Positions 11,059-33,655 of a DNA stretch of 36,308 nt are shown here, piece by piece. Numbering within the stretch: the stretch's first letter is position 1; every line of letters begins with the position of its first letter. Both the position numbers and the translations under genes were made by a program. The stretch covers positions 47,631 to 83,938 of the forward strand of contig JASEFN010000003.1 in assembly GCA_030018355.1 (NCBI GenBank), written 5' to 3'. A model generated the notes under the pieces. That model was not told the origin of the DNA, did not search any database, and saw only the letters and a program-made list of their open reading frames with translations. This DNA comes from Caldisericia bacterium. Its GTDB lineage: Bacteria > Caldisericota > Caldisericia > B22-G15.

Positions 11059-11133
11059 TGGTGGGCGATGGTGGACTCGAACCACCGACCTCTTCGGTGT
11101 CAACGAAGCGTTCTACCTCTGAACTAACCGCCC
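11059..11133 (-). tRNA. tRNA-Val (anticodon GAC), CCA encoded
   Basis: A complete cloverleaf can be drawn: acceptor GGGCGGT/ATCGCCC (one G-U), D stem GTTC/GAAC, anticodon stem CTTCG/CGAAG with loop TTGACAC (anticodon GAC), variable loop AGGTC, T stem GGTGG/CCACC with loop TTCGAGT, discriminator A and genomic CCA. Total 75 nt. It reads Val GUC/GUU codons. It is immediately followed by a U-rich leader and thrS. Confidence 0.96.
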
Positions 11134-32686: not shown

Positions 32687-33070
32687 ATGGGTTTTTTGGA
32701 TGGTTTAAAAAAGTTTTTTGGTTTTGAGGAAGAAGTACAAGAAATTCACGAAGAGGAAGAAGGAATTGTTATTGGTGAGGATACAGGAGTTAAAGTTGTA
32801 GTAATTGAGCCTAAATCTTTTGATGAAGCACAAGAAATTATAGATGATCTTAAAGATGGTAGACCAGTAATAATTAATTTTGAAGATACAGATAGAGAAC
32901 TTGCAAGAAGAATAATTGATTTCATAAGTGGTGGAGCATATGCTTTGGATGGTTCAACAGAAAAAATTTCAAATTATGTATTTTTGTTTGTTCCAAAAGG
33001 GGTTGAAATAACAAAAGAGAGCAAAAAATTTTGGAAGAAACACCTCGATAAAGAAGAAAAAGAAGAGTAA
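32687..33070 (+). CDS. sepF: Cell division protein SepF
   Basis: 127 residues, ATG behind AAAGGAGGAG. An N-terminal amphipathic helix (MGFLDGLKKFFGFEEE) for membrane binding, an acidic linker, then the SepF core: VKVVVIEPKSFDEAQEIIDD, PVIINFEDTDRELARRIIDF, GGAYALDGSTEKISNYVFLF. SepF bundles FtsZ filaments and anchors them to the membrane, overlapping in function with FtsA. It is the last gene of the operon. Confidence 0.96.
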   Translation: MGFLDGLKKFFGFEEEVQEIHEEEEGIVIGEDTGVKVVVIEPKSFDEAQEIIDDLKDGRPVIINFEDTDRELARRIIDFISGGAYALDGSTEKISNYVFLFVPKGVEITKESKKFWKKHLDKEEKEE

Positions 33071-33102: not shown

Positions 33103-33131
33103 TTGAAATAATTTTAGAAGTTTGATATAAT
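33103..33131 (+). promoter_or_regulatory. Promoter before hairpin RNA candidate
   Basis: TTGAAA at 33103-33108 and TATAAT at 33126-33131 with a 17-bp spacer, one of the best sigma-70-type promoters in the window. The start is expected at about 33137-33139. It lies 33 bp past sepF and faces a convergent gene, so no coding sequence follows in its direction. Confidence 0.7.
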
Positions 33132-33135
33132 TTTA

Positions 33136-33215
33136 TTTGCTCTGACTCTTACGTTATCTCGTAAGTATCTTCCTAAAAAATGGGAAGACCAGAGATAACG
33201 GAGAGTTGGAGCAAA
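33136..33215 (+). ncRNA. Candidate small RNA folding as a long hairpin
   Basis: The 80 nt form one long stem: TTTGCTC/GAGCAAA (7 bp), two G-U pairs, ACTCT/AGAGT (5 bp) with one further wobble, a single bulged A, CGTTATCTC/GAGATAACG (9 bp), an asymmetric internal loop (7 and 3 nt), then TCTTCC/GGAAGA closed by a wobble with a 7-nt A-rich loop. An alternative local hairpin CTTACG/CGTAAG (33148-33153 with 33160-33165) competes with the central stem. Neither strand has a U-tract after the stem, so it is not an ordinary terminator. A strong promoter places the RNA start at the stem base. It matches no RNA family I recognise (not SRP, 6S, tmRNA or RNase P). Confidence 0.5.
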
Positions 33216-33232
33216 ATCTCCTTAAACATTAA

Positions 33233-33655
33233 TTATTTTATAAGTTTTTCTATTAAATTGTTATCCTCTTTACTTTTAAATATAATTTTTATTAGTAATC
33301 TTAATGAATTGCTTAAATTTTTAGATATTTTAACTTTCTTTAATAAATAAGGCAATCTTCTTATTGATTCCTTTCCCTCTTTTATATTTAAAATTGATAT
33401 AATTTTTTTCCTTTCATCTTTTGAATATTTTTCATTTATATCGAGTTCAATTATTCTATTTATTGGAAGTTGATTAATTATACTTGCGAATACCTCATCT
33501 GGAGCATCAATTAAATTAATTATTTCCCAATCATAAATAATTTTTGAATCATAAGAAAGTTCTTTAGATATAAAAGCAATACTTTTGTATTCCCACGCGC
33601 CAAAATCATTTTTAGTAAGAACTCTATAACTTTTTGAAATATTGTTATTCTTCAT
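33233..33655 (-). CDS. Hypothetical protein, 140 residues
   Basis: I do not recognise this protein. It is soluble, mixed alpha/beta in the first half (SYRVLTKNDFGAWEYKSIAF) and rich in Lys/Ile helices in the second (RRLPYLLKKVKISKNLSNSL). There is no signal peptide or membrane segment. It starts 14 nt after the glycosyltransferase gene and is probably co-transcribed with it. ATG without a clear Shine-Dalgarno. Composition matches its neighbours, so a real gene is likely. Confidence 0.6.
   Translation of the reverse strand: MKNNNISKSYRVLTKNDFGAWEYKSIAFISKELSYDSKIIYDWEIINLIDAPDEVFASIINQLPINRIIELDINEKYSKDERKKIISILNIKEGKESIRRLPYLLKKVKISKNLSNSLRLLIKIIFKSKEDNNLIEKLIK

Follow-up and report, generated by a model that had tools for sequence, protein, structure and literature searches.

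Described small RNAs share single features with the element reported here. 6S RNA, which acts through protein binding (to RNA polymerase), resembles it as a long interrupted hairpin, but its covariance model (RF00013) has 187 positions. The bacterial small SRP RNA (RF00169) is a single long hairpin with internal loops and of similar size. The small RNA RNA-OUT of IS10 likewise consists of one hairpin; it is antisense to the transposase leader and acts via its apical loop (PMC4737173), whereas the apical loop of the present element differs between genomes and no transposase is seen beside it. The nearest described arrangement among those we found is that of the 66-nt sRNA ArgX in Lactococcus lactis, whose gene lies directly after argR and is transcribed from its own promoter (PMC6586332). 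The likeness is one of arrangement, with the same strand and a near-consensus -10 element; ArgX differs in having a common terminator with argR and in acting as a regulator of the arc operon, while the element described here has no clear terminator. Among the literature matches listed, no report of small RNAs from Caldisericota was found.

The window analysed here, i.e. the whole stretch of 36,308 nucleotides (G000:C3:47631-83938), belongs to a genome with a total size of 1.41 Mb. It contains the end of the dcw cluster, where ftsZ is followed by an HlyD-like gene and then by sepF (Pfam SepF, E = 3e-31), which ends at 33070 on the + strand. A short ORF without a Pfam family lies at 33233-33655 on the - strand, so that the promoter and hairpin described below are enclosed by two convergent genes, as the original prediction had stated. 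We regard 33103-33212 as an independent candidate sRNA gene which, among the genomes searched, is confined to one Caldisericota genus, and assign this reading a probability of roughly 75%. Judged from the sequence, the region has two properties of a stand-alone sRNA gene, namely its own promoter at the 5' end of the RNA and a conserved sequence in an otherwise diverged intergenic region.

The element is found in three genomes: the present one (G000) and two relatives, G003 (L004:1501-1578) and G001 (L007:3513-3589, JAKPCM010000096.1). The search comprised BLAST against 61 genomes and a covariance model against 54 Caldisericota genomes, and neither method detected the element in the 51 other Caldisericota genomes searched. 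In all three carriers, sepF directly precedes the same promoter and hairpin, the setting is one of convergent genes, and there is a single copy per genome. Both other genus members in which the 3' end of sepF is assembled thus carry the element. In the fourth member (G002) and in the nearest other genus (G004), no sepF is assembled and the contigs stop within ftsZ or the gene after it; because they break before sepF, these two genomes were not counted as absences. The break affects the same stretch of the dcw cluster in both drafts. In more distant members of the class the element may be missing or diverged beyond recognition, and fast evolution may account in part for its absence beyond the genus. 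A BLAST match in genome G031 was discarded as a chance hit, since it sits in a coding sequence (dihydroorotase/hydantoinase-like by eye). A 22-nt match on contig C2 of the present genome, which covers the AT-rich promoter region and lies in apparently coding DNA, was rejected as well.

The neighbourhood in G001 has features of its own. An AbiEi/AbiEii-like (type IV toxin-antitoxin) gene pair (L007:3536-4627, - strand) starts at the 3' base of the hairpin, and its AbiEi-like ORF reads into the opposite strand of the hairpin, which suggests an insertion whose edge coincides exactly with the RNA. The hairpin has been kept despite this different downstream gene. Between sepF and the promoter, G001 also has extra DNA (L007:3393-3480) that contains GTGTACAAGGTGCCTGACCCCACTGTACAC as well as an inverted repeat of 11 bp (AGTTTACAAAA/TTTTGTAAACT) and that looks like a mobile repeat.

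The promoter had been described as TTGAAA-N17-TATAAT pointing at a palindrome, and this description is confirmed and can be extended. The -35 element TTGAAA (33103-33108, + strand) is separated from the -10 element by a 17-nt spacer in G000 and G003, and reads TTGAAT with a 16-nt spacer in G001. The TATAAT hexamer (33126-33131) is part of an extended -10 element, TGATATAAT (33123-33131), with its TG at 33123-33124; the pattern TGNTATAAT is present in all three genomes. With a score of 11/12, it ranks first among the 7 promoter-like sites detected in a scan of 1.1 kb. However, about 6.6 sites of at least 9/12 are expected there by chance, and the promoter-like site is therefore not significant when taken alone. 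It is the conservation in the relatives that settles the question of more than chance for promoter and hairpin. In a three-way alignment with G000 as the reference, which was also used for the identities of the hairpin and its flanks, the extended -10 element is 89-100% identical. The end of TATAAT is exactly 7 nt away from a conserved GCTCT in all three genomes, whereas the five nucleotides scored between them (33132-33136) show an identity of only 20-40%. Because this spacing is fixed while its letters differ, we infer a transcription start at the invariant G33139 (+ strand), flush with the stem base, which fits the start point that had been expected there.

The predicted body of the sRNA, based on fold and conservation, is a hairpin of 74 nt (33139-33212, + strand). 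Its outer stem (33139-33160 / 33192-33212) has 21 pairs and one bulged base (33151), and its apical stem (33168-33174 / 33182-33188) carries an apical loop at 33175-33181. The stems are separated by a 7x3 internal loop, with GUAAGUA on the 5' side (33161-33167; AUAAGUA in both relatives) and an invariant CCA on the 3' side (33189-33191). The palindrome of the original prediction is hence indeed an imperfect stem with a bulge and an asymmetric loop, but consists of about 21 + 7 pairs around the loop rather than of one run of about 30 bp. The minimum free energy is -43.1 kcal/mol for 126 nt (z = -6.8), and none of 200 shuffled sequences was equally stable. For the 105-nt core, the value is -42 kcal/mol with z = -7.6; the corresponding z in the relatives is -7.6 (G003) and -3.1 (G001). 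In a scan of the whole window on both strands, the hairpin was the most stable 80-nt segment (-32.6 vs a mean of -8.2, sd 4.1), with a tRNA-Val gene as the runner-up.

Conservation of the palindrome in related genomes, which had been named as a check, was found, and it is confined to promoter and hairpin. The hairpin (33137-33213) is 95% identical in G003 and 87% in G001. Identity drops to about 44% upstream of the promoter and to 23-27% downstream, where the tail (AAAATCTCC..., 33213-33232) is unconserved; these flanks are not alignable. The hairpin is also more conserved than the fourfold-degenerate sites of sepF, of which 20/30 and 14/28 are identical (50-67%; Fisher p = 4e-4 and 2e-4). Of the 84 cells in the alignment, 83 are standard pairs on the + strand (98.8%), the sole exception being one C-A mismatch in G001. 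Read on the - strand, the same alignment is only 84.5% paired, because G-U pairs turn into A-C mismatches. As pairing on the + strand exceeds that on the - strand, it is probably the + strand RNA that has been selected, and not a DNA palindrome. The pairs that vary pass through G-U. Compensatory changes, which had been proposed as a further check, are limited to a single pair (G-U, G-C and A-U), which is too weak for proof: covariation in one pair from three sequences has no statistical weight, and shuffles were uninformative. Of the 21 outer pairs, 18 are invariant, and both strands of the stem are conserved beyond what pairing alone needs. The apical loop differs between the genomes, with a deletion in G001, whereas the conserved unpaired bases, RUAAGUA and CCA, face each other across the asymmetric internal loop.

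A hairpin between convergent genes, as found in all three genomes, could also belong mainly to the 3' end of the sepF transcript and/or act as a bidirectional terminator, with an incidental promoter. The sequence following the stem bears on this explanation. In G003, the stem is followed by a T-rich run (ATTTTTAATTTATTT) and in G001 by a weaker one (CTTTATT), and Rho is encoded in G000 and G003. The claim that no U-tract follows on either strand holds for the present genome, in which no terminator-like site was detected in the 1.1 kb scanned, but does not extend to G003. A terminator, however, would not explain why the promoter and its exact spacing are kept in a leader that has otherwise diverged, and terminators do not usually preserve sequence in addition to pairing, as the invariant outer pairs do here. 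Together with the missing U-tract in G000 and the poorer pairing of the - strand, this makes a terminator quite unlikely. Two further ideas concerned a switch. The competing local 5' hairpin CTTACG/CGTAAG exists in the present genome but reads CTTTCG/CATAAG in both relatives, and GGAG has its complement CTCC in this sequence, while neither relative has CTCC after the hairpin. Since the relatives lack both, the two switch ideas were dropped. What stands of the original prediction is a candidate hairpin RNA, orphan and with a promoter of its own, backed by conservation and by pairing on the + strand.

Being short, stable and equipped with its own promoter, the hairpin resembles antisense RNAs such as RNA-OUT, and it could be a cis-antisense RNA whose pairing partner is the mRNA 3' end of the convergent gene. 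That gene ends at 33233 on the - strand, and transcription past this point could extend across the hairpin. Yet the convergent gene is a different, AbiEi-like one in G001, the target would be a 3' UTR and not a ribosome-binding site, and the apical loop, where pairing starts in RNA-OUT, is not conserved. We thus consider this very unlikely. Even less probable is a function at the DNA level, as a protein-binding or recombination site, an integron attC-like site or a mobile repeat. The foreign-looking genes whose start in G001 coincides with the 3' base of the hairpin would agree with such a site, and the ends are loosely attC-like (CTCTAAC...GTTGGAG in G001). However, the AAC...GTT triplets of attC are not kept (by eye GAC/GTT, GAC/GTC and AAC/GTT, with GAC/GTC in G003), and an integron attC site was rejected; moreover, G-U type changes keep RNA pairs while they break DNA complementarity, and the promoter is conserved. 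Many genomic copies would have pointed to a mobile repeat, but with one copy per genome, a REP/MITE-type repeat is ruled out. No homologue turned up when plasmid and phage collections were searched by BLAST and IMG/VR was scanned by pattern twice; the sole plasmid match (E = 0.09) lies over the AT-rich promoter region. Finally, promoter-like sites are abundant in AT-rich genomes, but a chance structure without function is hardly credible given conservation above neutral in three genomes and z of about -7. A candidate sRNA gene is favoured over these alternatives by its single copy, its fixed place after sepF and the conservation of promoter and structure above the neutral level, all of which come from sequence comparison.

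The candidate sRNA does not belong to a known class among those that were tried. An Rfam search, proposed along with the original prediction, gave nothing relevant for the region at E <= 5, for the whole window or for the loci of the relatives, and the element matches no Rfam family. There was no covariance-model match to 6S RNA or to the small SRP RNA, and the genome has its own copies of both (C2:201681-201846 and C3:158671-158770, respectively). Hfq was not detected in the genome, whereas control genomes were positive, and an Hfq-dependent antisense sRNA was therefore rejected. Likewise, CsrA was not detected although positive controls worked; an RNA of the CsrB/CsrC type was dismissed on this ground and because the ACGGA motif of the hairpin sits in the stem and is lost in G001. 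A small ORF within the RNA (ATG at 33176) has no evident ribosome-binding site, and its frame is broken by a 1-nt indel in G001. When pairing with the 5' regions of the genes in the window was evaluated, the best value was -23.4 kcal/mol at rplT; random segments reach -26.6, so the rplT energy is inside their range and no target is claimed. A CRISPR repeat or tracrRNA was also rejected, the words that the hairpin has in common with the repeat unit of the Cas1-adjacent array being at most 7 nt long. The genome contains a large CRISPR array near Cas1 (L061:961-8080, G000:C4), with 103 exact copies of GTTTCAATCCCTCATAGGCGAGCTAAAAAC in the 20 kb examined there.

Transcription of the candidate gene, its start site and the stability of the RNA are proposed here from sequence. 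RNA polymerase with the housekeeping sigma factor would start at about G33139, and the RNA would open with the 5' strand of the 74-nt hairpin. As its 5' end would be paired flush at the stem base, a stable RNA is expected. What the RNA may do can be judged only from which bases are conserved. We tentatively prefer, as an unproven mechanism, a folded ligand of a protein over a classic antisense RNA, with contacts that would be made via the internal loop RUAAGUA/CCA and the stems on either side of it. This is favoured by the variable apical loop combined with conserved unpaired bases in the internal loop, by the conservation of both stem strands beyond pairing needs, and by the lack of detectable Hfq and CsrA. 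The next most likely mechanism, which we regard as possible but doubtful, is a base-pairing regulator that acts via the 5' arm or the internal loop. It is unlikely that the element represents a new RNA family, in which small single hairpins with a flush 5' end bind a dedicated protein or control dcw expression in Caldisericota; the candidate sRNA gene is new as a sequence but ordinary as a kind. Promoter, likely start and fold are defined for a candidate sRNA gene that is not in Rfam, and since Hfq and CsrA were not found in this genome, it offers a clean entry point to sRNA action there. Its fixed place at the end of the division cluster makes a candidate link to sepF/ftsZ expression directly testable.

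A minor observation concerns the tRNA-Val (GAC) gene of the window (11059-11133, - strand). It overlaps the 5' part of the thrS ORF as called mechanically (TTG start at 11103); the true start of thrS lies downstream of this TTG, probably at an internal ATG (MKIDIFVENL).
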